Shown: positions 128 to 25,008 of the stretch, piece by piece
Layout: every line of letters starts with the position of its first letter
Position numbering within the stretch: position 1 is the first letter of the stretch
Assembly: GCA_003838145.1 (NCBI GenBank)
Contig: QYZZ01000008.1
Location: forward strand, 1-55,456
DNA length: 55,456 nucleotides
Direction: 5' to 3'
Source of the DNA: Tindallia sp. MSAO_Bac2
Lineage (GTDB): Bacteria; Bacillota; Clostridia; Peptostreptococcales; Tindalliaceae
Position numbers and translations under genes: made by a program
The notes under the pieces: model-generated
What the model was told of the DNA's origin: nothing
The model's database searches: none
What the model saw: the letters and a program-made list of their open reading frames with translations, nothing else

Positions 128-1066
128 TTAAATAGCCCATTTTTCATCTTCCGTAAAACTGACGGTTAACCATGGATCATAGGGCATTTCTCTGATTTTC
201 TGAAAGATTTCTTCCCGGACCCGATCTGTATCTTTTATTGTTTTGATACGGGCTTCAGGATCCGTTATGAAGTCAATCTCAATGAAAAGTGCTGAACCAA
301 CTTTACTGACACGACAATAGGATTGCTGAATACGATATTTTTCCCGAATTTCCGATACCATTTTTTCCATTTTTCGCTGCATTTTTTCTTCCGGAGCCAT
401 TCGCATCAACTCTCTCAAGCCACTTAGCATTGACTTGAGTGGTGATTTAACTAAAAAAGCGGAAATGACCAATACCAACAAAGGATCAACATAGGGAATC
501 AGCCAGGTGACGGATGTATTTCCTATAAGTTTTGCTAAGATAAAACCCAGTGTACTGCCAAGAGATATCAATCCGTCATTTTTCCATTCCAGTGCTTCCA
601 GTTTCAATAAGTCAGACTCGTAGTTTTTTCCTTTTTCCCGAAGAACAAAATATACCGCCAAGCAGAATAAAGCTGAGAAACTTACATAAGCCAGTGTGTA
701 ATTTATCTTGACGATTCTGCCACCGCTCAACAAGTCCTGGATGGCAAATACGACGGCGGTAACGACCAAGCCCAGCACCACAAGAGATTTCAAGAATATA
801 ATAGCTGCTTCCGCAACACTTTTGCCGAAGGGAAATCTTTTAGTCTCGCTTTGATTGTCTCTCTCTACAAAGTGAACAACCCATAAAGAGAGTAAGGACA
901 TTCCAATCAGTGTTGATGAGTAAAGGCCATCCAGCAGAATCATCCTGGAGTTTGTCATCATCCCCCATAAAATGCCAGTCACAGCAAAAATAAGAGTCCC
1001 CGCAATAGAGAATTTTATCATTTTTTTTATAAATTTTGTTTCCTTATGATGCTCATCGCTTTCCAT
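128..1066 (-). CDS. Cation diffusion facilitator (CDF) family transporter
   Basis: A 312-residue inner-membrane protein with the CDF layout: about six membrane helices in residues 17-215 and a soluble C-terminal domain (about 220-312). CDF proteins usually exchange Zn, Fe, Mn or Cd for protons. The metal site is unusual. At the TM2 position where FieF has DxxxD, this protein has D46-G-L-Y-S50. At the TM5 HxxxD position it has E-W-K-N-D. Two of four usual ligands are therefore replaced, so metal choice or even transport is uncertain. It is the last of three minus-strand genes, with 133 bp between it and the DUF401 gene, and probably has its own promoter there. The family call is firm; the substrate is unknown. 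Confidence 0.82.
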   Translation of the reverse strand: MESDEHHKETKFIKKMIKFSIAGTLIFAVTGILWGMMTNSRMILLDGLYSSTLIGMSLLSLWVVHFVERDNQSETKRFPFGKSVAEAAIIFLKSLVVLGLVVTAVVFAIQDLLSGGRIVKINYTLAYVSFSALFCLAVYFVLREKGKNYESDLLKLEALEWKNDGLISLGSTLGFILAKLIGNTSVTWLIPYVDPLLVLVISAFLVKSPLKSMLSGLRELMRMAPEEKMQRKMEKMVSEIREKYRIQQSYCRVSKVGSALFIEIDFITDPEARIKTIKDTDRVREEIFQKIREMPYDPWLTVSFTEDEKWAI

Positions 1067-6997: not shown

Positions 6998-7013
6998 AAA
7001 AAAACTCTCCCTT

Positions 7014-7086
7014 CGGTAGCTGGCTGCCATTTTACAGGCCCTTTAGCTTTGCGTCCCCGTCTTTCGTTCGGGTTTGCCTTTATCGG
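7014..7086 (-). ncRNA. Cyclic-di-GMP-I riboswitch aptamer (GEMM-I), gene-proximal copy
   Basis: Read on the minus strand, this 73-base unit holds the GEMM-I core in order: GGCAAACC, a hairpin with a GAAA tetraloop, GACGCAAAGC, GGGCCT, and ATGGCAGCCAGCTACCG. It ends two bases before the ribosome site of the transglutaminase gene. Flanking bases 7088-7093 (RNA CUUUCC) can pair with the ribosome site GGGAGAG (7005-7011), extending P1. That arrangement suggests ligand binding hides the ribosome site. The GEMM-Ib (cGAMP) variant is not excluded by eye. Confidence 0.93.
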
Positions 7087-7122
7087 CGGAAAGCCGATTG
7101 TTTCAATAAAAAAACTCTTCTT

Positions 7123-7195
7123 CGGTAGCTGGCTGCCATTTTACAGGCCCTTTAGCTTTGCGTCCCCGTCTTTCGTTCGGGTTTGCCTTTATCGG
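7123..7195 (-). ncRNA. Cyclic-di-GMP-I riboswitch aptamer (GEMM-I), upstream tandem copy
   Basis: This copy is identical over all 73 bases to the copy at 7014-7086, at an offset of 109 bases. Similarity continues past the aptamer: AAGAAGAG, T7, ATTGAAA here corresponds to AAGGGAGAG, T7, ATGAAAA at the real gene start. A weak P1 extension (AACUUUU with AAGAGUU) is possible. The copy seems to be a recent tandem duplication that took the ribosome site and start codon along. Confidence 0.92.
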
Positions 7196-7238
7196 TAAAA
7201 GTTATCTTTACCAAAACAAGTATTGATTTGTTTTTAAT

Positions 7239-12067: not shown

Positions 12068-15000
12068 ATGTCTGTGATCAGATTAAATATAAACGGAAAA
12101 GAAGTTACAGGGCAGAGCGGACAAACCATTCTCAATGTTGCCCGTGAAAATGGTATCGAGATTCCAACCCTCTGCTATGATGATCGAATGAAAATTTATG
12201 GTTCCTGCGGCCTTTGTATTGTTGAAGTGGAAGGAATTCCAAAGCTGCTGAGAGCCTGTGCAACGGAAATCGGCCAGGATATGGTTGTGATTACCAATTC
12301 TGAAAAAATTAAGGCTAACCGAAAGATCGCTCTGGAACTGTTACTGACAGACCACACTGGCGATTGCAGACCTCCATGCGTCCTTGAATGTCCGGGAAAA
12401 ACGGATTGCCAGGGATATGTAGGTCTAATTGCCAACGGAGAATACAAAGAATCTTTAAAGCTTATAAAAGAGCAATTGCCACTCCCAGCTTCTATCGGTC
12501 GTGTCTGTCCTCATCCGTGTGAAGATGCATGCCGAAGAGAACTGAAGGATGAGCCGGTGGCCATTGCCTGGCACAAACGGTTTGTTGCTGATATTGATTT
12601 GCAGGATCCGGAAGTGTTTATACCTGAAATCAAGGATCCCAGTGGTAAAAAAATTGCTGTCGTAGGTGGTGGTCCCGGTGGTCTTTCAACTGCTTATTAC
12701 TTGCTACAGGAAGGACATGAAGTTACTATTTACGATATGATGCCTGAAATGGGCGGTATGCTTAAGTACGGCATTCCTCAGTATCGTCTTCCAAAAGATG
12801 TTCTCAACCAGGAAATTAACATCATCGAAAAAATGGGTGCTAAAATGGTTAATAATGTTAGAATTGGACAGGACCTGACTCTGGATTATCTGCGCGCCAA
12901 TAATGACGCTGTTTACCTGTCTATAGGTTGCTGGGAAAGCTCTCCAATGAAGTGTAAAGGCGAAGATCTGGAGGGTGTTATTGGTGGTATTCACTTCCTG
13001 CGGGATGTAGTTGAGAATAAACCGGTAAAAATCGGCAAAAAAGTGGCGGTCATTGGTGGCGGAAATACAGCGATGGATGCTTGCCGAACTGCCGTCCGGC
13101 TTGGTGCTGATGAGGTTTATAATCTTTACAGAAGAACCAGGGAAGAGATGCCTGCAGAAGAAATTGAAATTGTGGAAGCTGAAGAGGAAGGTGTTATCTT
13201 TAAATTCCTTGTTAGTCCATTGGAAGTTATGGGAGCAGATGGAAAAGTTGATAAAATCCGTCTACAGAAAATGGAGCTGGGAGAACCGGATGCCAGTGGC
13301 AGAAGACGACCTGTTCCTATTGAAGGAGAAGAGGAAATCCTCGAGCTGGATTCAGTCATCGTTGCTATTGGACAGTATGTTAATGTTGAAGGCTTCGAAG
13401 CCCTGGAGCGAACAAAGTGGGATACCATCGTTTCAGACGAAAAAACTTTTTCCACCAGTATACCAGGCGTATTTGCCGGCGGGGATGCCATTAACGACAA
13501 TTTAAAAATAGCTATCCAAGCCATCGGAGATGGTAAAATAGCATCCCAGGTCATTCATGAGTACGTAAATGGTGTTCAGGTTCGTTATGAAAAGCCATAT
13601 CTGGTAACCCGCGACCCGGAAGATGTAAAGGTGGAAGAGTTTGCCCATCGTGAAAAAGCAAACCGCCCTCCTATGGCACATTTATCGCCGGAGTTCCGCA
13701 GACAGAATTTTGAAGAAGTTGGGCTTGGATTTACTCCGGAACAGGCCATCGAAGATGCTAAACGCTGTTTAGAGTGCGGCTGTCATGATTATTTCGAGTG
13801 TAAGCTTCTGGATTACTCCAACGACTATGACGTTGAGCCTGATCGTTTGGCCGGTGAAATTCATCATCGTCATGTTGAAAACAATCATCCCTTCATCGAC
13901 AGAAATCCTGATAAATGTATTCTGTGCGGCCTCTGTGTTCGAGTTTGCAGCGAGGTAATGGACGTAACAGCACTGGGATTGGTGGACAGAGGTTTTGACA
14001 CTATCGTAAAACCTGCAATGGACCGACCATTAAAGGATACTGATTGTATTTCCTGCGGTCAGTGTGTTGATGTCTGCCCAACCGGAGCATTGCAGGAACG
14101 TTTGCTGATAAATAAGTCGGTTCCTGTTGAAACAGATCAGATCAATACACTTTGTGGCTACTGCAGCGTTGGCTGCGAGAACACATTAGAAGTTCGAGGC
14201 GGTATGCTGGTAAGATCATTACCTAAGCTTGACAGTCCTGCTTCCGGAGGCCTGCTCTGCGTTAAAGGCCGCTTTGGTTTTGATATGGCTCAAAAGAATG
14301 ATCGAATCACCACACCTATGATTCGGAAAGACGGAAAACTGGTTGAAGCAAGCTGGGATGAAGCGTTGTTGCTGACAGCAAAGAAAGCTCAGGGACTGGG
14401 TTTCCAAAACGGTTTTGATGCTGTTGGCCTTACAGTTTCAGATCATTGGACTAACGAAGAAGTATATGCTGCCAAGCGTTTTGCTCACGAAGTACTTCAC
14501 ACACCTTGGTTTGGTTCTTTAAACAGAAGAGCTGACGGCTTACAGAATGTATTGGGCTTCGATGCATCTCCAAATACGCTGGAAGAAGTTCTTAGAACAC
14601 AGGTTATCCTGCTGGTAGGTTCACAAATTATGCGTGATCATGCAATGGCCGGCATTAAAGTGCGGCAGGCAGTACAAGAAAATGGCGCTAAACTGGTAAC
14701 CATCAACCCTTGCTCCACGAAAGCAGACGAATGGGCCACCATGAAAGTCAATCCGGAAAACCAGCTTTCTTTCCTTAAGGAAATAGCTTCAGCTCTTATT
14801 GAAATGGGATGTCAGCCTAAAAATGCAGAAGGTTTTGAGCCCCTGAAAGAAAGCCTTAAAGATGTAAAGCCAGGTGAAGAAGCGAAGAGAATTGCAGAAA
14901 TGTATAAAAATGCGAAATCTGCCATGATCGTCTTTGACGGTAAAATGCTGACAGCAGAAGCCGAAATAATGCTTGCTAATATTGCTGTTTTGTCTGGTCA

Positions 15001-15655
15001 TATTGGAGCGCCCAGACGAGGGATTTTAAAGCTTCAGCCTCAAAATAACAGTCAGGCACTGCCGCTAATTGGCGCAGACAAAGATGCTGATTCAATTATG
15101 AAGGCCATCAAAGATCAGCAGTTAAGAGGTCTTTTAGTATTAGGAGAAGACTTGCCAGCTGATGAATTAAAAAATCTGGAATTTCTGATGGTGATGGATT
15201 CACATCTGACTGAAACTGCTCAATTGGCTGACGTAGTTCTTCCTTCAGCAACCTATGCAGAATCTGACGGTACGTATACCAGCTTTGAACGTCGTATACA
15301 GCCTTTGGCCAAGGCTCTTCAGCCAGCTCAGTCCATGGAAAACTGGGAAGTAATGGCCAAGATGGCAGCCATCCTGCGCAAACCCTTCAGATACGAAACC
15401 ACTGAAGATATCACGACAGATCTGGCCATCAATGTTACTGGCTATCAGGGAATTCAGTACATGAATGGTGAACCGGCATTCTGGCCACTGGGACAGTCAC
15501 CCGTTTTATATACAGAAGGCTTTGGATTTGAAGATCAAAAAGCCAGGTTGCAGCAAACAGCTGACGCCCCCTTGTTCCAGGAAGCTATTTCGACTCATTA
15601 TATTACAAATCTCTTTATGAAAAAACTGGAAGAAGAAGGCTTGGATCGCTGCTAA
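12068..15655 (+). CDS. stnC: GltD/NfnB-FDH-like fusion, large subunit of Stn-type transhydrogenase
   Basis: A 1195-residue fusion. In order: NuoG-like [2Fe-2S] domain (about 1-80), His-Cys3 [4Fe-4S] segment (about 95-118), GltD/NfnB-like flavoprotein (about 120-540; FAD motif GGGPGGLSTAYYL, NADPH motif GGGNTAMDA with YRRTREEMPA), two ferredoxin clusters (CILCGLCVRVC, CISCGQCVDVCP) and a formate-dehydrogenase/NuoG-like domain from about 693 (CGYCSVGC, then GLLCVKGRFG). Where FDH has Sec or Cys, alignment by eye gives Ala (NRRAD), and the C-terminal pterin-binding domain is missing. FDH activity is therefore unlikely. With the two preceding genes this fits ferredoxin-linked NADH/NADPH transhydrogenation as in Stn; reaction direction is inference. 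Confidence 0.75.
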   Translation: MSVIRLNINGKEVTGQSGQTILNVARENGIEIPTLCYDDRMKIYGSCGLCIVEVEGIPKLLRACATEIGQDMVVITNSEKIKANRKIALELLLTDHTGDCRPPCVLECPGKTDCQGYVGLIANGEYKESLKLIKEQLPLPASIGRVCPHPCEDACRRELKDEPVAIAWHKRFVADIDLQDPEVFIPEIKDPSGKKIAVVGGGPGGLSTAYYLLQEGHEVTIYDMMPEMGGMLKYGIPQYRLPKDVLNQEINIIEKMGAKMVNNVRIGQDLTLDYLRANNDAVYLSIGCWESSPMKCKGEDLEGVIGGIHFLRDVVENKPVKIGKKVAVIGGGNTAMDACRTAVRLGADEVYNLYRRTREEMPAEEIEIVEAEEEGVIFKFLVSPLEVMGADGKVDKIRLQKMELGEPDASGRRRPVPIEGEEEILELDSVIVAIGQYVNVEGFEALERTKWDTIVSDEKTFSTSIPGVFAGGDAINDNLKIAIQAIGDGKIASQVIHEYVNGVQVRYEKPYLVTRDPEDVKVEEFAHREKANRPPMAHLSPEFRRQNFEEVGLGFTPEQAIEDAKRCLECGCHDYFECKLLDYSNDYDVEPDRLAGEIHHRHVENNHPFIDRNPDKCILCGLCVRVCSEVMDVTALGLVDRGFDTIVKPAMDRPLKDTDCISCGQCVDVCPTGALQERLLINKSVPVETDQINTLCGYCSVGCENTLEVRGGMLVRSLPKLDSPASGGLLCVKGRFGFDMAQKNDRITTPMIRKDGKLVEASWDEALLLTAKKAQGLGFQNGFDAVGLTVSDHWTNEEVYAAKRFAHEVLHTPWFGSLNRRADGLQNVLGFDASPNTLEEVLRTQVILLVGSQIMRDHAMAGIKVRQAVQENGAKLVTINPCSTKADEWATMKVNPENQLSFLKEIASALIEMGCQPKNAEGFEPLKESLKDVKPGEEAKRIAEMYKNAKSAMIVFDGKMLTAEAEIMLANIAVLSGHIGAPRRGILKLQPQNNSQALPLIGADKDADSIMKAIKDQQLRGLLVLGEDLPADELKNLEFLMVMDSHLTETAQLADVVLPSATYAESDGTYTSFERRIQPLAKALQPAQSMENWEVMAKMAAILRKPFRYETTEDITTDLAINVTGYQGIQYMNGEPAFWPLGQSPVLYTEGFGFEDQKARLQQTADAPLFQEAISTHYITNLFMKKLEEEGLDRC

Positions 15656-15687: not shown

Positions 15688-15719
15688 GGCAAAACCCGGT
15701 CAATGGGTTTTGCCTTTTT
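15688..15719. terminator. Bidirectional terminator between stn-like operon and aroB
   Basis: A perfect 10-bp stem (15688-15697 with 15705-15714) has a 7-base loop. T5 follows on the plus strand and A5 precedes, so it can end both the plus-strand operon and the minus-strand aro operon. Confidence 0.9.
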
Positions 15720-16779
15720 ATATCATTATTTCGTATATTTCTTCCGGAAACAGCAATATTTCTTCAATTCCATTTCCTTCCTTTGGAAGCACAAATGAAA
15801 TCCTTTCCTCACGATTTTTTTTATCCTTTTTCATTTCTCGAATTAAGTCTGAGAGCGGAAAAATATCTTCCTCTTCAGCAGCCGGTATTTTTTTTACCAG
15901 TTCTTTATAACTGTTGCACTTTTCAAGTCCCAACCAGTTTATCCGCGATGCCAGTTCAAGTTCGAACAGCATTCCCTGCCGAACTGCCTCGCCATGGCCG
16001 ATTTGAAATTGGGATAACTTTTCGATGGCATGGGCTGTCGTATGTCCGACATTCAGCACCTTCCTTAATCCTTTTTCCCGCTCATCAGCCATCACGATGT
16101 CATTTTTGCATTCAATACACTTTTTTATTAGTTGGGTCATGGTCTCCGGTTGTCGTGATAAAATATTGCTCCAATTATCTTCAATCCATTTTCCAAAGTT
16201 TTCACCTTTAATAATAGCGTATTTTACAACTTCCGCAAAACCACCCCAAAACTCATTTTCAGCCAGTGTGTTTAATACCAGTGGGTCTATCCAAACGGCT
16301 TGCGGCTGATAGAAGCTGCCTGCCAGATTTTTTCCGGCTTTAAGGTTAATTCCAGTTTTTCCTCCTACACTGCTATCCACCTGAGACAACAGCGTGGTTG
16401 GTATTTGAATCCAATCAATCCCCCTCATGTAAACAGAGGCACAAAAACCGGCCAAATCCCCCACTACCCCACCGCCCAAAGCGATGATTCCATCGTAACG
16501 ATTAATGTTATTTTCTGCCATGGTTTCCAGAATATGTTCAGCCTTTTGGATGGTTTTGCTCTTCTCTCCCGGTGATATTACTATATTTAAGCAGGATCTT
16601 TCTTTTATGAGCTCAAACAGAGACAGCTGCTCACAGGCCACATTATGATCAGAAATCAGTACCCATCTGCTGTCTTTCAACGTGGATGTTATTTCTTTAG
16701 GAAGTGGTGATTCCAGAAGATCAGCTTTAATCAAAATTGGATAGGACCGTCCCTGAAAGTCTGCTGTTATCATTTCCAT
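15718..16779 (-). CDS. aroB: 3-dehydroquinate synthase
   Basis: A 353-residue enzyme for step two of the shikimate pathway, turning DAHP into 3-dehydroquinate with NAD+ and a divalent metal. Marks are the NAD site GGGVVGDLAGFCASVYMRG (about 100-120), PTTLLSQVDSSVGGKTGIN, and metal ligands in the E-VKYA region and GHTTAHAIE with a later GHGEAVRQGM. Length is typical. The start overlaps the aroC stop by 10 bases, so the two are translationally coupled. It is the last gene of the six-gene aromatic operon and reads into the terminator at 15688-15719. Confidence 0.96.
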   Translation of the reverse strand: MEMITADFQGRSYPILIKADLLESPLPKEITSTLKDSRWVLISDHNVACEQLSLFELIKERSCLNIVISPGEKSKTIQKAEHILETMAENNINRYDGIIALGGGVVGDLAGFCASVYMRGIDWIQIPTTLLSQVDSSVGGKTGINLKAGKNLAGSFYQPQAVWIDPLVLNTLAENEFWGGFAEVVKYAIIKGENFGKWIEDNWSNILSRQPETMTQLIKKCIECKNDIVMADEREKGLRKVLNVGHTTAHAIEKLSQFQIGHGEAVRQGMLFELELASRINWLGLEKCNSYKELVKKIPAAEEEDIFPLSDLIREMKKDKKNREERISFVLPKEGNGIEEILLFPEEIYEIMI

Positions 16780-17900
16780 CGTCGTTTCATCTCCTCCATT
16801 GAGTCAGCTCCAAAGGTCTCCAGAAAAGCATCTGTCAGCGTTAAACCAACAACAGCCTCCGCAACAACAGCTGCTGCCGGAACAGCACAGGTATCACTCC
16901 GCTCCACAGCAGCATTGTGAACGTCTTTCGAATGAAAATCCACTGTTTTCAGAGGCTTCATCAGTGTTGGAATCGGCTTCATACCACATCGGATAATAAG
17001 GATTTCTCCATTCGTCATACCACCTTCAATTCCGCCGGCGTGATTTGTCTTTCGATTAAATCCATTCGTTTCATTATAAAATATCTCATCGTGGACGCAG
17101 GATCCCGGTTCTTTAACTCCTTCAAACCCGTCTCCCACTTCAACAGCTTTTATCCCCTGAATACTCATTAATGCACCGGCTAATTTCCCATCCAGTTTTC
17201 GGTCCCAGTGGGTATAACTACCCAAACCAACCGGTAAACCTTTAACCTGAATTTCAATCACACCACCAAGGGTATCACCATCTTCTCTGGCTTCATCAAT
17301 GCACTGAATCATTCGTCTTTCTGCATCTTTACATACGGAGCGTACAGGCGAATCTTCCGATGCTTTCAGCTCGTGGAACTCCACCTGTTTTTGTTCGATA
17401 GCCGCTTGCCCAATTCGCCGTACATGACTTGCCACTTCGATACCGAAGACAGACAGCAACTGACTTGCGATGCTACCAGCAGCCACTCTGGCTGTGGTTT
17501 CTCTGGCGCTGCTCCTTTCCAGCACATGTCTCATATCACTGAAACTATATTTCAAAGCACCGGGAAGATCTGCATGTCCCGGTCTTGGATGACTGACTTT
17601 TTTATAGTTTAAATCGCCCTGAAAAGGATCCATTCCTTCTTTCCAGTTTTCATAATCTTTGTTGGGAATCATGAAACTGATAGGACTTCCCAAGGTTAGT
17701 CCGCCTCTCAGACCTGACAAAACCTGTATTTGATCCTTTTCAATTTTCATTCTCCCTCCTCTCCCATATCCCTTTTGTCTTCTGGCCAGATGATGATCAA
17801 TAATAGCCTTGGAAATGGGCACTCCCGCCGGCATACCTTCCAGGATTCCCGTCACCGCCTGTCCATGGGACTCGCCAGCCGTTAGCAATCTTAACATCAT
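16770..17900 (-). CDS. aroC: Chorismate synthase
   Basis: A 376-residue enzyme that converts EPSP to chorismate using reduced FMN. The N-terminus LTAGESHGQAVTGILEGMPAG, the RRQKGYGRG loop and the central SSARETTARVAAG motif are all present, and the length fits the bacterial long form. It starts 11 bases after the pheA stop and runs 10 bases into aroB. The order pheA-aroC-aroB places it in the common trunk of the aromatic pathway. Confidence 0.96.
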   Translation of the reverse strand: MMLRLLTAGESHGQAVTGILEGMPAGVPISKAIIDHHLARRQKGYGRGGRMKIEKDQIQVLSGLRGGLTLGSPISFMIPNKDYENWKEGMDPFQGDLNYKKVSHPRPGHADLPGALKYSFSDMRHVLERSSARETTARVAAGSIASQLLSVFGIEVASHVRRIGQAAIEQKQVEFHELKASEDSPVRSVCKDAERRMIQCIDEAREDGDTLGGVIEIQVKGLPVGLGSYTHWDRKLDGKLAGALMSIQGIKAVEVGDGFEGVKEPGSCVHDEIFYNETNGFNRKTNHAGGIEGGMTNGEILIIRCGMKPIPTLMKPLKTVDFHSKDVHNAAVERSDTCAVPAAAVVAEAVVGLTLTDAFLETFGADSMEEMKRRWK

Positions 17901-17911
17901 TTCGCCCTCCT

Positions 17912-18736
17912 CTACAGTGGTTTTTCTGATCTCGGAAAAGACCCAAAAATATACAGTTTTCTTGTTTTTTCCCGAAGCACTTCCAGTATTCCGGGGATTG
18001 GTTCTTCCTCCTGATGCCCATAGAAATCAATGAAAAAAATGTATTGCCCTAATTCCTGTTTAGCTGGTCTTGATTCTATTCTGGAAAGATTTATTTCATA
18101 ATCAGCAAATATTTTCAAAATTTTGTAGAGGCTCCCCGGCTGGTCATGCTGAAAAGAGAAGGCGATAGATGTTTTATCGGTTCCAGTCGGTTGTTTTTCT
18201 CCTCTTCCCAGCAGCACAAAGCGTGTTTGGTTAAAACGGTTATCCTGTATATCCTGACAAGCAACTTTCAATCCATTATGTTTTCCTGCCCACATACTGG
18301 CAACCGCTGCATATTTGCTTCCTTTTTGTTGTGCCTTATGACAGGCACCTGAAGTGCTTTCTGAGTTTATCAGTTTGACGTGAGGATAATTTTTTCTGAG
18401 AAAGCCGCGGCATTGTTCCAATGCCTGTGGGTGTGAAATAACGTATTCAACCTCTGACATTTGTCCCGTAGTATTAAATAAATGATGCCGAATACGGTAA
18501 GTTATTTCTTCCTGAATAACAATTTCTTTCAGGTCAAGCAGGCTGTCCATAACCGAAGTCACTGCTCCTTCAGTTGAGTTCTCAACGGGCAGAATACCAT
18601 AAGCAAGAGATTTGTTTTCCAGTTTCTCCAGTATTTCCATGAAAGACGAACAGGCCACCGGTTCCAGTTCCGGGAAAGCCTCTTTTAAAGCAAGATAACT
18701 GTACGAGCCTTCAGGCCCTAAATATCCACACTCCAT
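17912..18736 (-). CDS. pheA: Prephenate dehydratase
   Basis: A 274-residue monofunctional enzyme (no chorismate mutase domain) making phenylpyruvate from prephenate. It has a periplasmic-binding-like catalytic domain with GPEGSYSYLA, VENSTEGAVTSVMD and the TRF motif in NQTRFVLLG, followed by an ACT domain (about 190-265) with the ESRP phenylalanine-binding motif. Feedback inhibition by Phe is therefore likely. It lies 35 bp after aroA. No chorismate mutase gene was found in the window. Confidence 0.95.
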   Translation of the reverse strand: MECGYLGPEGSYSYLALKEAFPELEPVACSSFMEILEKLENKSLAYGILPVENSTEGAVTSVMDSLLDLKEIVIQEEITYRIRHHLFNTTGQMSEVEYVISHPQALEQCRGFLRKNYPHVKLINSESTSGACHKAQQKGSKYAAVASMWAGKHNGLKVACQDIQDNRFNQTRFVLLGRGEKQPTGTDKTSIAFSFQHDQPGSLYKILKIFADYEINLSRIESRPAKQELGQYIFFIDFYGHQEEEPIPGILEVLREKTRKLYIFGSFPRSEKPL

Positions 18737-18771: not shown

Positions 18772-20052
18772 CTATTTATCAATAAGTGAGTCTATAACAT
18801 CCATAAATCCCGGGAAGGAAACAGCCATACAGGTTTCATTCGATATTTCCACCGGGTTTTCTGACATCAAGCCAGCTACAGCCATAGCCATTGCAATTCG
18901 ATGATCTCCATGACTGTTTGTCTTGCCTCCTTTAATGGGCTGAGGTCCGGATATGACCATCCCATCTTCCAGAGTTGTCACTTCAACACCAATATTCTTT
19001 AGCTCCTCTGCCATGGCACTGATCCGATCTGTTTCCTTAACCCGCAGTTCCGCAGCCCCGGTAATACTCGTTTTTCCGCGGGCGCAGGCTGCAGCTATGG
19101 CTAATACAGGCACTTCATCGATAAGGCTGGGGATAAGATCCTCACCAATGTCAACCGCCTTCAATGACGTTCCTTTTACATTCAGGTCAGCAATTGGCTC
19201 ACCACCAACTTCCCTCTGATTGAGCACGCTGATTTCCGCTCCCATTTGTTGAAGTACTTCTATAATTCCTGCCCTGGTGGGATTTATGCCTACGTTTTCC
19301 AATGTCACATCAGATCCTTTCAGACAGGCAGCAGCCACAAGGAGAAACGCTGCCGAAGATATGTCCCCCGGAACTTCGATATGAGTTCCCTTTAGTTTCC
19401 CCGGTTGAACCGTTTTTGTCAGTCCATCGCTTTTTACGCTTACACCAAAAGATTCAAGCATGCGTTCCGTATGGTCCCGGCTGGCTCGTGGTTCAATAAC
19501 ACTGGTCTTTTCTTCTGCGTAAAGTCCCGCCAGCAATATTGCTGATTTTATTTGTGCACTGGCGACAGGCATTTTATATCTGATTCCTTTCAGCTTGCTG
19601 CCACGAATAGCTAATGGTGCTTTCGTTCCTTCCATCCGACCATCAATGGAAGCACCCATTTCTCTGAGGGGTGCTGCAATCCGTTTCATCGGTCTTTTTC
19701 GAAGAGATTCATCACCTGTAATCACTGTATGAAAAGCCTGTCCACTAAGAATCCCAGCCATCAGTCTCATGGTTGTACCGGAATTGCCTGCATCCAGAAC
19801 GTCTTCCGGCTCTTTGAGTCCATATAGCCCATTACCGGTAACAACCAGTTGATTATTTTCTTCCCGGATCCTGACGCCCATTTGCTCAAAACACCTAATG
19901 GTGGAAAGACAGTCTTCTCCTTTTAAAAATCCATTAATTGTTGTTTGTCCTTCGCTGATTCCAGCCAACATTACCGCCCGGTGACTGATGGATTTATCAC
20001 CCGGAACACGGCATGTGCCTCTCAGTTTATTTACATTATGTACGGTCAGCAT
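18772..20052 (-). CDS. aroA: 3-phosphoshikimate 1-carboxyvinyltransferase (EPSP synthase)
   Basis: A 426-residue enzyme joining shikimate-3-phosphate and PEP. It shows the N-terminal PGDKSISHRAVMLAG motif, the LDAGNSGTTMRLMAG PEP site, and RVKETDRISAMAEEL near residue 340. Position 100 in LDAGNSGTTMRL is the usual glycine/alanine region that governs glyphosate response; I do not infer a phenotype. AGGAG precedes the start, which lies 17 bases inside the tyrA 3' end, so translation is coupled. Confidence 0.96.
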   Translation of the reverse strand: MLTVHNVNKLRGTCRVPGDKSISHRAVMLAGISEGQTTINGFLKGEDCLSTIRCFEQMGVRIREENNQLVVTGNGLYGLKEPEDVLDAGNSGTTMRLMAGILSGQAFHTVITGDESLRKRPMKRIAAPLREMGASIDGRMEGTKAPLAIRGSKLKGIRYKMPVASAQIKSAILLAGLYAEEKTSVIEPRASRDHTERMLESFGVSVKSDGLTKTVQPGKLKGTHIEVPGDISSAAFLLVAAACLKGSDVTLENVGINPTRAGIIEVLQQMGAEISVLNQREVGGEPIADLNVKGTSLKAVDIGEDLIPSLIDEVPVLAIAAACARGKTSITGAAELRVKETDRISAMAEELKNIGVEVTTLEDGMVISGPQPIKGGKTNSHGDHRIAMAMAVAGLMSENPVEISNETCMAVSFPGFMDVIDSLIDK

Positions 20053-21160
20053 GATTCATCTCTCCTTTTTTCCGGGTAAAGGATAAGCCTTTCTCACCCA
20101 GTGCTTTCATCGCTCGCCTTTCTTCTTCTGCTTCTGCAAAAGCAAGACGTACAGCTCCTTTTTCACCTTCACGCGCATGCAGTATTTCTATTTCCTTGAT
20201 ATTAACTTCTGCCTGGCCGATGATGCTGGTGATTCGTGCCAGAGCGCCCGGTTCATCTTTAATGTCCACATAGATTTGATACCATTCCGGAAGATAATCT
20301 TTTCCTGCCTGAGGAAGTGTATCTCTATATTTTTTTCCCTTTTCCAAAAGATCACGCACTTCTATTCGTTTCTTTAAAGCAATTGACTGACGAAATCCAC
20401 GAAGCATGTTTTCCAGCTTTTCTACTCCGTCCAACAACTCTCGCTGGTTATAGAAAAAAATTTCTTCCCACATAACCGGGTTTCCAGCAGCAATTCTGGT
20501 TGTATCACGAAATCCGCTGCCGGTGAAGTTTTTCAACTCTTCATCATTTTCTTCATCCATGGTGCAAGCCAGTACAGAAGCCACAAAGTGTGGAAGGTGA
20601 CTGGTTCTGGCTACAATATAGTCATGTTTTTGTGGAGTGATAAGCACAGGGAAAGCTCCAATAGTTGATACCAGCGATTTAATTCGATCCAGCACTTCAA
20701 CAGGTGTCCGTTCAGTGGGAGTCAGAAAGTAGTAAGCATTTTCAAACAGGTATGGGCTGGCTGCTTCAACACCGCCTTTTTCAGATCCGGCCAGAGGATG
20801 TCCGCCTACAAAAGAAACACCCTCCGGCAATCTTTCTGCGGCAGTCACCGCAGCTTCTTTTACACTTCCCAGATCTGATACAACCGCACCTTTTTTAAGG
20901 CTCTCAGCTAATGCATTGAATATACTTTCATAGTGGCCTACAGGTACGGCTAGCATGACAAGATCAGCATCTGTAACCGTTTCTTCGAGTGTTTTTCCCA
21001 TTCTGTCAACGATGCCCAGCCGAAGGGCGCTTTCCAATGCCTTCCTGTCTGAATCAAAGCCTGTTACAGTGCACTGAATTCCTCTTTCCTTTATCGCCAG
21101 TGCAAAGGATCCACCCATCAATCCCGTACCTACCAATGCTATTTTTTTAAAGTCGTCCAT
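20036..21160 (-). CDS. tyrA: Prephenate dehydrogenase with ACT domain
   Basis: A 374-residue enzyme giving 4-hydroxyphenylpyruvate for tyrosine. The NAD fold begins with ALVGTGLMGGSFALAIKERG, followed by the DLGSVKE and GGHPLAGSE active-site motifs, the dimer-forming helical domain (about 165-275) and a C-terminal ACT domain (about 290-370) that suggests control by tyrosine. The start at 21160 has GGAGG seven bases upstream, 19 bases after the aroF stop. The longer frame back to 21208 overlaps aroF and lacks a ribosome site. Confidence 0.94.
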   Translation of the reverse strand: MDDFKKIALVGTGLMGGSFALAIKERGIQCTVTGFDSDRKALESALRLGIVDRMGKTLEETVTDADLVMLAVPVGHYESIFNALAESLKKGAVVSDLGSVKEAAVTAAERLPEGVSFVGGHPLAGSEKGGVEAASPYLFENAYYFLTPTERTPVEVLDRIKSLVSTIGAFPVLITPQKHDYIVARTSHLPHFVASVLACTMDEENDEELKNFTGSGFRDTTRIAAGNPVMWEEIFFYNQRELLDGVEKLENMLRGFRQSIALKKRIEVRDLLEKGKKYRDTLPQAGKDYLPEWYQIYVDIKDEPGALARITSIIGQAEVNIKEIEILHAREGEKGAVRLAFAEAEEERRAMKALGEKGLSFTRKKGEMNHADRT

Positions 21161-21179: not shown

Positions 21180-22181
21180 TTATCGTACTGAGTAAATTTT
21201 TTGAACAATGCTCATCATACGCTTGAAGTTATCAAACTTAAGGGACTGTCCGCCATCTGACATAGCCTCTTCCGGCTGATCATGAACTTCTACCATTAAT
21301 CCGTCAGCTCCCGCTGCCACTGCAGCTTTTGCCATTGGCTCTACCAGTGTCCATTTGCCGGTTCCGTGACTTGGGTCAACTACCACAGGTAAATGGCTTA
21401 GTTCTTTTACCACCGGCACTGCACTTAAATCCAATGTATTGCGGGTATATTTTTCAAAGGTCCGGATTCCTCTTTCGCAAAGGATGACGTTGGGGTTCCC
21501 TTTGGAAAGAATATACTCTGCTGACATCAACCATTCTTCAATAGTTGCACTGAGTCCTCTTTTCAGCATCACAGGCTTATTGCTGAGGCCTGCTTGCTTT
21601 AACAATGCATAGTTCTGCATGTTTCGAGCTCCTATTTGAAGAATATCTGCATAAGATGCCACCATATCCAGATTATCCTGGTCCATTACTTCGGTCACAA
21701 TGGAGAGACCTGTTTTTTCCTTCGCTTTTTTCAGCAACTTTAATCCTTCTTCTCCCATCCCCTGGAAACTGTAAGGTGATGTTCTGGGCTTAAATGCCCC
21801 TCCCCGAATCATGTTGGCTCCATTTGCCTTAACGTTGGTGGCAATTTCCATTAGCTGTTCTTCACTCTCCACGGCACAGGGCCCTGCGATGACTACCATG
21901 CTTCCATTTCCAATTTTTGTACCATTCACCTGTACTACCGTGTCTTCCGGATGAAACTCTCTCGATGCCAGCTTAAAAGGGTTAAGGACCCGGATGAGTC
22001 TTTCAACGTTTTCGTTGGCTTCAATCTGTCCCGGATTGATTCTTCGGGTGTCTCCAACAAGTCCCAGAATAAGATGGTTTGTTCCCTGAGATTCGTGCAC
22101 CTCACATCCCAGACTGATCATTTTCCGTTTGATTTTTTCTACTTTCTCCTTCGGTGCATCAGGCTTCATTACAATAACCAT
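21180..22181 (-). CDS. aroF: 3-deoxy-7-phosphoheptulonate (DAHP) synthase
   Basis: A 333-residue enzyme condensing PEP and erythrose-4-phosphate, the first committed step of aromatic synthesis. A ferredoxin-like N-terminal regulatory domain (about 1-70, [19 protein letters not shown]) precedes a TIM barrel with [27 protein letters not shown] and the metal-site DPSHGTGKW. This is the AroG-beta/AroF type in which the N-terminal domain mediates feedback inhibition. AAGGAGG precedes the start. It is the first gene of the operon and sits directly behind the leader-peptide attenuator, so its transcription should answer to aromatic aminoacyl-tRNA supply. Confidence 0.95.
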
Positions 22182-22210: not shown

Positions 22211-22242
22211 AAAAAAGTGCCTCTTTCTAAGAGACACTTTTT
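22211..22242 (-). terminator. Attenuator terminator upstream of aroF
   Basis: On the minus strand a stem of up to 12 bp (22231-22242 with 22212-22223, one G-U pair and several A-U pairs) encloses a 7-base loop and runs into a U7 tract. It lies 30 bases before the aroF start codon, that is, inside the leader. Its loop and inner stem, CUUAGAAAGA (22222-22231), are exactly complementary over 10 bases to leader bases 22316-22325, which form the probable antiterminator. Confidence 0.85.
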
Positions 22243-22287
22243 GCGTACACGATCAAACTTTGTCCTGGAACTGAATATGGCAGCTAC

Positions 22288-22449
22288 TTATGCCAACAAT
22301 ACAGCCCGGCTGTTCCTTAGAAAGAACTCATTTCTCTGAAATTTTACCAACACAAAAGTTCCGGCGCTAAAATAAAAATAGCCCCAGAAATAGGTAAAAT
22401 AAAAGGATTCAAAGAAATTTTCGAGTTTCTTTTCCAGAAGGTTCAGCAT
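22288..22449 (-). CDS. Aromatic-rich leader peptide of the aro operon
   Basis: A 53-codon frame between a consensus promoter and the attenuator. Codons 12-27 read FFESFYFTYFWGYFYF: 12 aromatic residues in 16 (seven Phe, four Tyr, one Trp). A second Phe-Phe pair (codons 42-43) lies on the antiterminator strand. Such a run is what a transcription-attenuation leader needs: slow ribosomes at Phe/Tyr/Trp codons would leave 22316-22325 free to pair with the terminator and let RNA polymerase continue into aroF. The stop codon lies about 45 bases before the terminator. The ribosome site is weak (AAGAAAG); a GTG three codons upstream could also be the start. The role is inferred from layout. Confidence 0.85.
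   Translation of the reverse strand: MLNLLEKKLENFFESFYFTYFWGYFYFSAGTFVLVKFQRNEFFLRNSRAVLLA
22312..22329 (-). promoter_or_regulatory. Predicted antiterminator strand
   Basis: RNA bases UCUUUCUAAG (22316-22325) are a perfect 10-base complement of CUUAGAAAGA in the terminator (22222-22231). The same stretch can instead close a small local GUUC/GAAC hairpin (ends 22312 and 22327). It encodes leader codons around the second Phe-Phe pair, so a ribosome reaching the leader's end would cover it. Confidence 0.65.
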
Positions 22450-22504
22450 TTCATTCACACAGCTTTCTTTGTTTTGTTTTATAAATTTTCAGTAATTACG
22501 GACT

Positions 22505-22533
22505 ATTATAACGATCAAAATTCTATCTGTCAA
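22505..22533 (-). promoter_or_regulatory. Consensus sigma-A promoter of the aro operon
   Basis: -35 TTGACA (22528-22533) and -10 TATAAT (22505-22510) match the consensus at every position with a 17-base spacer. A transcript starting near 22498 would have a leader of about 320 bases before aroF. So strong a promoter implies that control occurs after initiation, which fits the attenuator. Confidence 0.93.
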
Positions 22534-23450: not shown

Positions 23451-24683
23451 ATGATGAACATTATTGTACAAAAGTTTGGCGGCACATCACTGGCAACTTC
23501 CGAAAATCAGATGGATGCTATTAATAAAATTGTTTCTGCTGCAAAAAACGGATACATGCCTGTTGTTGTTGTTTCTGCCATGGGTCGTAATGGATCTCCT
23601 TATGCCACCGATACCCTGAAAAGTTTATTGTCTATCGACGGAACGATGCCTGATTCTCGTCACATGGATTTGCTTTTAAGCTGTGGCGAAGTAATCTCTG
23701 CTGTCATTTTATCTGATAAACTAAAAAAGGCCGGATACGAATCCGAGGCATTAACAGGCTGGCAGGCTGGCATCGTAACAAATGATCATTTTGGTTGTGC
23801 GGAAATATTGTCTATTGAGAAAGAAGTGCTGAAGTCCTATCTGGAAAAAGATATTATTCCGGTGGTCAGTGGTTTTCAAGGGATAACCATGGACCGGGAA
23901 ATCACTACCCTGGGCCGGGGTGGTTCTGACACAACGGCTGCTGCTCTTGGTGCGGCTCTTAATGCAGATTGCGTTGAAATATACACTGACGTTGATGGCA
24001 TCATGACTGCAGACCCAAGAGTAGTGGATGATGCCTGTATATTGGAAGAGATGCATTATGATGAAGTATTTCAAATGGCCGATCAGGGGGCGAAGGTAAT
24101 TCATCCCAGAGCTGTTGAAATAGCCCGTCAAAACAATTTATCCGTCAGGATTAAAAATACCCGCTCAGATCATCCAGGCACCTTGATTTGCTCCCAAAGA
24201 CAGCACTTTGACCTGCGCTATTCTTCCCATGGGCCGGAACATCTTTTGACGGCTGTTACACAAAAGAATGATATCGCCCAGGTTATTATATCCCGCATGG
24301 AAACCGGACTCCAGGAAGAAAGCCGCCTTTTCGAAGATATGGCTAATTGCGGCATCAGTATTGACATGATTAATTTTTCACCTGAAAGAAAAATATTCAC
24401 CATCGAAGAAGGAAAAACCATCGAGCTGAAAAACCTGTTAGAAAACTATCCTGTTCAGTTTAATGTGACTCCTCAATTAAGCAAAGTAACGGTTATCGGC
24501 AATAGAATGACGGGAATCCCCGGAGTTATGGCAACGGTTTTTTCAGCTTTGGCAGAGGAGGGTATTCGGATTCTTCAAAGTTCAGATTCTCACGCCACCA
24601 TCTCTTGCCTCGTCCGTCAAAATGAAGCTCCAAGGGCCGTCCAAAGCCTTCATCGTTTTTTTAAACTCCACAGAAGAAAGTAA
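23451..24683 (+). CDS. lysC: Aspartate kinase
   Basis: A 410-residue enzyme making aspartyl phosphate for lysine, threonine and methionine. The kinase domain opens with VQKFGGTSLA; GRGGSDTTAAALGAALNA and the TDVDGIMTADPR motif follow. Two ACT units occupy about 265-405, suggesting feedback control by an end product. The ATG at 23454 is better spaced from AGAGGG than the one at 23451. The leader is only about 100 bases, too short for a lysine riboswitch. The stop is 2 bp from that of the convergent yerC-like gene. Confidence 0.94.
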   Translation: MMNIIVQKFGGTSLATSENQMDAINKIVSAAKNGYMPVVVVSAMGRNGSPYATDTLKSLLSIDGTMPDSRHMDLLLSCGEVISAVILSDKLKKAGYESEALTGWQAGIVTNDHFGCAEILSIEKEVLKSYLEKDIIPVVSGFQGITMDREITTLGRGGSDTTAAALGAALNADCVEIYTDVDGIMTADPRVVDDACILEEMHYDEVFQMADQGAKVIHPRAVEIARQNNLSVRIKNTRSDHPGTLICSQRQHFDLRYSSHGPEHLLTAVTQKNDIAQVIISRMETGLQEESRLFEDMANCGISIDMINFSPERKIFTIEEGKTIELKNLLENYPVQFNVTPQLSKVTVIGNRMTGIPGVMATVFSALAEEGIRILQSSDSHATISCLVRQNEAPRAVQSLHRFFKLHRRK

Positions 24684-24685
24684 TA

Positions 24686-24979
24686 CTATATCTCTTCCAG
24701 ACGTTTCAAAATGCGTTGATAACCATCGGCACCATACAGCAGACAGCGGTTCACCCGGCTAATAGTAGCAGTACTGGCTCCTGTCTGCTTTTCAATTTCC
24801 GTGTAAGTCTTTTTTTCCTTCAGCAGTTTCGCCACTGCCAATCTCTGGGAAATTGACTGAATTTCTTTTATTGTACAAATATCCTCAAAAAACCGATAAC
24901 ATTCTTCTTCTGTTTCTAATGCGAGTATTGCTTTAAACAGTTCGTCTACAAAGGGATCTTTTATTTTTGACTCATACAT
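24686..24979 (-). CDS. yerC: YerC/YecD family TrpR-like DNA-binding protein
   Basis: A 97-residue helical protein with the Trp-repressor superfamily helix-turn-helix: AVAKLLKEKKTYTEIEKQTGASTATISRVNRCL (quoted here as TYTEIEKQTGAS and TATISRVNR). It follows the YerC/YecD pattern, ending LYGADGYQRILKRL. The ATG at 24979 follows GAGGTGA by six bases; an in-frame GTG at 24982 is closer than usual. Its ligand and targets are unknown for most of the family. Nearness to aromatic genes is suggestive but not proof of a tryptophan role, since they are on separate transcripts. Confidence 0.88.
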   Translation of the reverse strand: MYESKIKDPFVDELFKAILALETEEECYRFFEDICTIKEIQSISQRLAVAKLLKEKKTYTEIEKQTGASTATISRVNRCLLYGADGYQRILKRLEEI

Positions 24980-25008
24980 CACAGGCTCACCTCTGTCTAT
25001 ACGGAAAT

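Follow-up and report, generated by a model that had tools for sequence, protein, structure and literature searches.

What controls the aroF-tyrA-aroA-pheA-aroC-aroB operon of Tindallia sp. MSAO_Bac2, whose first gene is preceded by a short frame crowded with Phe, Tyr and Trp codons? Aromatic control in Firmicutes is usually credited to T-boxes and to TRAP, whose target leaders carry GAG/UAG repeats, and the enteric pheA, pheST and trp attenuators carry the codons of their end products in a leader that can adopt the alternative pairings 1:2, 2:3 and 3:4. In the trp attenuator, the control codons lie within segment 1. An original prediction, made from the DNA alone, held that a leader-peptide attenuator controls the aro operon, and we followed it up in the window (the whole 55,456-nucleotide stretch that was analyzed, contig QYZZ01000008.1), in the source genome and in relatives. 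Attenuation by a leader peptide proved to be the best reading, with an additional pairing state that the original prediction had missed.

The aro leader and its operon

On the minus strand, the parts follow one another as promoter, leader frame, intrinsic terminator and aroF (Table 1), and the run of Phe/Tyr/Trp codons corresponds to the end products of the operon downstream. The consensus promoter and the 53-codon frame were found as predicted; TTGACA and TATAAT are likewise present in L082-L084 and L086. Of 1614 stretches in the whole window that run for 20 or more codons without a stop, none but the leader has 12 aromatic codons in 16 (the runner-up has 9). When the leader interval was put through 2000 dinucleotide shuffles, 12 were never reached and 10 were reached once. 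An alternative in-frame GTG occurs at 22458, 9 bases 5' of the ATG. Since L082 has no in-frame GTG at that place, the ATG is the likelier start.

Table 1. Features of the aro leader and operon (window positions).
Feature	Position	Strand	Details and basis
Promoter	22505..22533	-	TTGACA - 17 - TATAAT; 12/12 consensus match
Leader ORF	22288..22449	-	53 codons, MLNLLEKKLENFFESFYFTYFWGYFYFSAGTFVLVKFQRNEFFLRNSRAVLLA; ATG 22449, stop 22288
Aromatic run	22369..22416	-	codons 12-27, FFESFYFTYFWGYFYF; Phe/Tyr/Trp = 12/16; aromatic runs in relatives
P0 5' strand (segment 1)	22423..22447	-	leader start region; minimum free energy fold
P2 hairpin	22361..22387	-	YFYF codons; CUGGGGCU (22387-22380) with AGCGCCGG (22368-22361); fold
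P0 3' strand (segment 2)	22309..22329	-	holds antiterminator element; fold, permutation test
Antiterminator element	22316..22325	-	TCTTTCTAAG, within leader ORF; co-varies with terminator in relatives
Partner of element (segment 3)	22222..22231	-	CTTAGAAAGA; end of terminator 5' arm, loop, start of 3' arm
Intrinsic terminator (segments 3:4)	22212..22242	-	stem 14 pairs, loop 3 bases, T run
aroF, DAHP synthase	21180..22181	-	first gene of operon; NF006421 527 bits, TIGR01361 430.9 bits
tyrA, prephenate dehydrogenase	20036..21157	-	PF02153; best NCBIfam NF005107, 324.7 bits, below curated cut-off of 414
aroA, EPSP synthase	18772..20052	-	TIGR01356
pheA, prephenate dehydratase	17912..18736	-	NF008865
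aroC, chorismate synthase	16770..17900	-	TIGR00033
aroB, 3-dehydroquinate synthase	15718..16779	-	TIGR01357

Thirty bases separate the end of the terminator from the aroF start, and TCTTTCTAAG and CTTAGAAAGA form the exact 10-base complement from which an antiterminator had been proposed. On its own this complement is the weaker evidence, a match of at least 10 bases being reached in 15 of 2000 shuffles. The predicted absence of a T-box core was borne out: Rfam gave no family at gathering score at the aro leader, T-box RF00230 included, and a T-box or other known RNA was ruled out there on that basis. Elsewhere in the source genome there are 16 T-box matches, of which 13 exceed the cut-off. 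Rfam also gave no known RNA at gathering score at 20 selected aroF loci without an aromatic leader. The leader peptide matched no known protein family in NCBIfam and Pfam, and a search for plasmid copies gave no match.

Recurrence of the leader upstream of aroF

The original prediction had proposed a search for homologous leaders in related genomes. Of seven family genomes, six have aroF, and in all six an aromatic leader frame precedes it, with the core GYFYFSAG or, in L086, DYYYFSAG. We extended the search to 150 aroF loci, i.e., 80 loci plus 70 from the order. An upstream frame with 8 or more aromatic codons in 16 occurred at 82 of the 150; the antisense strand had one at 10 of 150 and shuffles gave 2.1 per 150 on average, so that conservation of the aromatic codons also held up. 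In the order subset the frame was found at 60 of 70 loci; this subset is non-random and tilts to close relatives because it consists of the 30 best-scoring aroF loci and 40 hand-picked ones, mostly one per genus. The ten order loci at which the frame was absent are L099, L129, L132, L134, L135, L136, L141, L142, L147 and L149, of which L129 and L132 are positioned after another aroF copy.

Removal of five duplicates and of L115, where no terminator was found, reduced the 82 loci to 76 leaders (the L085 leader is identical to that of L001). Their aromatic stretches contain Phe, Tyr and Trp in 58 cases, Phe and Tyr only in 16 and Tyr only in two. The predicted joint sensing of three amino acids therefore suits most leaders, including that of the window, and not the remaining 18. 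Sensing of Phe-, Tyr- and Trp-tRNA by the leader is what the codons suggest.

Multiple copies were also seen. Two aromatic leaders, each with a terminator, stand before a single aroF in L119 (positions 485-639 and 182-312, minus strand), and in both the P2 sequence is a different one, CUGCAGCU:AGCUACAG. At G096:C1:2376994-2378616 and G075:C65:241578-243168, aroF copies lie in tandem, and each is preceded by a leader of its own.

Competing pairings and their covariation

The two ends of the leader compete for the same element. In single folds of the window leader and six relatives, the start region paired with the element and the terminator formed in 7/7, and when the 5' part was blocked the element paired with the terminator arm in 6/7, the exception being L103. 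These folds, together with the covariation below, show a predicted three-way RNA switch: the element is paired either with segment 1 or with the 5' arm of the terminator, or else the terminator itself forms. The original prediction had described the terminator and antiterminator correctly but lacked the third state, the pairing of the antiterminator element with the leader start region.

Covariation of terminator and antiterminator, also proposed as a check, was clear. Across the 76 leaders, the leader part 3' of the run and the terminator 5' arm plus loop had a mean duplex energy of -12.25 kcal/mol when matched and -9.3 kcal/mol when permuted (z -10.1; 20,000 permutations). For further comparison, 48 of the 76 leaders, chosen for a recognizable SAG-like core, were divided into alignments A1 (24 leaders, the window's group) and A2 (24 leaders); A3 comprised 43 of these 48, and A4 63 rows from 62 chosen loci. 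In the 48 leaders, segment 1 and the element gave -17.9 matched against -12.9 permuted (z -10.5), the element and the terminator gave z -7.5, and the control pairing of segment 1 with the terminator gave z +0.2. Inside group B alone, the element-terminator pairing was not significant (z -1.2). Individual element/terminator pairs that change together include TCTAAG/CTTAGA, TCTAATGAG/CTCATTAG and TCGAAG/CTTCGA (L104), and the second leader of G001 has the co-changed pair AAATCCCTC/GAGGGATTT.

Since the segments slide by a few bases in group A, the duplex permutation test was used there, and it is this test that supports the window's group (z -6.7). A fixed-register covariation count in A1 found nothing beyond shuffles, with P0 unsupported and P2 supported. 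The A2 alignment supports three nested helices, P0, P1 and P2, with 88.9% of cells paired, compared with 41-49% when slid, and its level of covariation was attained in 0 of 500 shuffles. P1 was found in group B only, and we make no claim of it for the window. In A4, two-sided changes occurred in 24 of 28 pairs, a result that tilts towards the structure because the rows were fitted to it. In three alignments, 97.0, 98.6 and 98.4% of the cells in the P2 columns are paired; in the window, the P2 stem contains an internal G x G mismatch.

Reading-frame constraint and translation signals

The aromatic run is held in frame. The P2 loop is 5, 6, 8, 11, 14, 17 or 20 bases long, with a remainder of 2 on division by three in 61 of 63 leaders, and when read in the frame of the AGC codon 62 of 63 leaders are aromatic-rich, against 1 of 63 for either alternative frame (the true frame was read over 8 codons, the other two over 7). 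Frame is not kept in the spacing between P2 and the element (remainders 32/20/11). Steps of three in the loop and an unframed distance to the element indicate that the constraint acts on codons in the run and on the RNA itself in the element. Indeed, the nucleotides of the element survive a change of frame: from CCTTTTCTAATGAG, L113 reads TFSNE and L131 reads KPFLMS, and L131, L126 and L139 are all in a different frame from L113 in this region.

A Shine-Dalgarno match of at least 4 bases precedes the frame in 70 of 76 leaders, compared with 14 of 76 shuffled regions; the window's own site before the ATG is, by eye, weak. The leader ORF thus appears translatable, with a start and a ribosome-binding site.

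Proposed mechanism

With the frame and its codon run, the alternative pairings, their covariation in relatives and the constraint on the run's frame established by comparison of sequences, we read the aro leader as a ribosome-mediated transcription attenuator, with a probability close to 0.9. In the mechanism we infer (a stalled ribosome, a masked segment 1, a possible pause at P2 and a response to amino acids), RNA polymerase would start near 22498, as judged from the promoter, and make a leader RNA of ~290 bases. By default, segment 1 would pair with segment 2, enclosing the aromatic codons and P2, the terminator (3:4) would fold, and transcription would stop 30 bases 5' of aroF. When Phe-, Tyr- or Trp-tRNA is scarce, a ribosome would stall within codons 12-27 and open P2, and a stalled, queued or initiating ribosome would hold segment 1 off segment 2. 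The freed element could then pair with the terminator 5' arm (2:3), permitting transcription of the operon. When charged tRNA is plentiful, the ribosome would continue across the element in the direction of the stop codon, and the terminator would fold.

An equilibrium folding model of 48 leaders bears on the masking step. With all RNA up to the stalled ribosome blocked, the antiterminator formed in 42-47 of 48, and with the ribosome at the stop codon, 1:2 formed in 44/48 and the antiterminator in 6/48. When the footprint alone was blocked, 1:2 was kept in 37-44 of 48 leaders and the antiterminator (at least 5 expected pairs) formed in 17-25 of 48; in the window leader it formed at none of three stall positions. 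Since in this calculation a block by the footprint alone mostly leaves 1:2 in place, a stall would additionally have to mask segment 1 or act kinetically. Within this model, 1:2 must be prevented for antitermination, so that an exposed element is insufficient by itself. With only the footprint acting, this simple scheme leaves the element unfreed in most leaders. Considering that the run of the window leader starts at codon 12, about one ribosome length past the start, a stalled ribosome and the one following it would together cover segment 1.

Alternative explanations

The peptide itself, rather than uncharged tRNA, could be the sensor. In a nascent-peptide arrest of the TnaC type, the WG-YFYF-SA(G/S) peptide would stall the ribosome on binding a free aromatic amino acid, and the stretch FYWGFYFFSA(G/S)YFAW is indeed closely alike across genera, with the motif serine at least 90% conserved in 43 peptides. 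However, the conserved residues are mostly those that encode P2, and the peptide varies where P2 persists. In the tandem leaders of L119 the residues are CS...SYS, yet CUGCAGCU:AGCUACAG can form, and in L010 and L013 they are LC...STG, with a U-A pair in place of the usual mismatch. The aromatic leaders of other phyla are without the motif, and we consider peptide arrest improbable.

The conserved P0-P1-P2 structure, and an element preserved as RNA through changes of frame, could also belong to a riboswitch-like RNA that binds a ligand or protein, with the reading frame incidental. Loop lengths in steps of three, aromatic richness confined to one frame and the Shine-Dalgarno sites all speak against an incidental frame, and Rfam places no family at the leader, which makes this explanation very unlikely. 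Hardly credible is a translated short ORF followed by a constitutive terminator, with the apparent switch a product of chance or a relic: the 10-base complement alone could be so explained, given how often shuffles attain it, but two competing pairings that co-vary and a leader that recurs before several aromatic genes speak against it.

Further genes associated with the leader

Ribosome-mediated attenuation might extend beyond aroF. We trained a covariance model, R1, on 24 group B aroF leaders with the window left out, and it detected the window leader with 42.0 bits (E 4.1e-5 over 252,811 bases); it missed G002, whose leader scored 31.0 bits. In a sample of the phylum, only 12 of 249 genomes (the window's included) had a match, and all 12 matches precede aroF. 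A second model, R2, whose training rows include the window and seven other phylum matches (L151-L156, L159), matched 19 of 398 phylum genomes, again always before aroF (19/19); 12 of these are the R1 phylum matches. In the source genome the aro leader is the sole R2 match; no second leader was found there, the next match having E 7.95 and no aroF.

In the order, R1 gave 73 matches in 56 of 118 genomes. Several of its training leaders came from genomes that were searched again here; the 13 identified non-aroF matches lie outside training. Of the 73, 59 stand before aroF, 13 before other aromatic genes or transporters and one before a masked stretch, the target of a non-aroF match being taken as the first ORF of at least 100 codons 3' of the leader. 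Five targets are shikimate kinases, four of them fused to chorismate mutase (the scores of the kinase parts are, like those of the transporters, under curated NCBIfam cut-offs); two are prephenate dehydratases, one fused to chorismate mutase, and one is a dehydroquinase. The others are four SSS-type symporters and one BASS-type transporter (L185, L207, L211, L212 and L206), labels that hold at superfamily level only because the NCBIfam scores are under curated cut-offs. We regard both as candidate transporters of aromatic amino acids or precursors. For L214 and L217 the terminator script found none; by eye, each has a hairpin with a broken T run. Within the family, a leader precedes the chorismate mutase-shikimate kinase gene in two of the six genomes in which the gene was found (G001 and G003); those without one are in the source genome, G004, G005 and, as a partial match, G002.

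Judging from these searches, the leader is not a one-off and belongs to a family with a recognizable hairpin and several kinds of target gene. A broader reading, which we offer tentatively and at somewhat less than even odds, is that P2 forms the core of an RNA family that Clostridia-like Bacillota dedicate to aromatic starvation. Its cis regulon (aroF, chorismate mutase-shikimate kinase, shikimate kinase, prephenate dehydratase, dehydroquinase and the two transporter families) would read the charging of Phe, Tyr and Trp tRNAs jointly, and the substrates of the SSS and BASS proteins would be predicted to be aromatic amino acids or precursors. The matches of the covariance model also indicate target genes without annotation.

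Outside the phylum, eight loci (L036, L041, L046, L057, L060, L066, L068, L071) from Chloroflexota, proteobacterial and deltaproteobacterial genomes have aromatic frames and terminators before aroF or a neighbor, with only 7 in 16 in L041, and the family signature is absent from them. R2 matched none of the eight at E <= 1, and we treat these frames as separate or convergent. After three of them, by eye, stands an AroH-type chorismate mutase.

Relation to known attenuators

The aro leader resembles the enteric attenuators in its end-product codons and in its 1:2, 2:3 and 3:4 pairings, but mixes Phe, Tyr and Trp codons. In contrast to trp, its control codons occupy the loop that separates segments 1 and 2, where a hairpin of their own, P2, surrounds them; the placement of control codons outside segment 1 is a mechanistic point in its own right. 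With the T-box RF00230 it shares control of a Firmicutes amino-acid operon through premature termination, and it differs in giving no match to a model that has 16 matches elsewhere in the same genome. If our reading is correct, many genomes of one Bacillota order, and scattered others in the phylum, use, in place of T-boxes and TRAP, a Yanofsky-type leader that integrates three amino acids for a common pathway.

In S. aureus, a leader peptide has reportedly been found for branched-chain synthesis. Among Firmicutes, leader-peptide attenuation is described before hisZ/hisS in Bacilli in the accessible part of PMC2965389, and a C. difficile hisZ leader in that of PMC4833913; these are alike in type of attenuation but have histidine codons and unrelated genes. 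The text of PMC2965389 does not mention DAHP, aromatic or deoxy-7-phosphoheptulonate, and the accessible parts of PMC2965389, PMC1262725, PMC2494555, PMC11477304 and PMC4833913 name no leader peptide of the aromatic kind upstream of a clostridial aroF.

The nearest published lead that we found, and the one direct precedent in the literature searched, is uORFC-13-1, which lies upstream of aroF in Acholeplasma and for which the authors suggest a Phe-dependent attenuator responding to the speed of Phe incorporation (PMC8632094). As far as the accessible part of that article goes, the motif comprises 24 sequences, from Acholeplasma and environmental samples only and exclusively before aroF, with a U run encoding at least one Phe and one further base-paired substructure (PMC8632094). 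Both systems have a short ORF and a terminator 5' of DAHP synthase; the mixed Phe/Tyr/Trp run seen here is not noted in that part of the article. In the Acholeplasmatales aroF loci L047 and L077, R2 gave no match at E <= 1. The suggestion that a mixed aromatic leader in a clostridial aroF operon may be undescribed therefore needs qualifying: none was found named in Clostridia, and uORFC-13-1 is a precedent. These sources are open literature, consulted in part, and a description elsewhere in print may exist.

Other features of the window

Two c-di-GMP-I riboswitch aptamers lie in tandem at 7012-7196 on the minus strand (60.4 and 59.3 bits). By eye, an ORF at 12068-15655 on the plus strand (1195 residues) has the appearance of a fusion of an FAD oxidoreductase with a formate dehydrogenase-like protein, and the ORF at 23451-24683 resembles aspartokinase. 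Near the latter, at 24686-24982 on the minus strand, is a small protein that we take to resemble the TrpR-like YerC.
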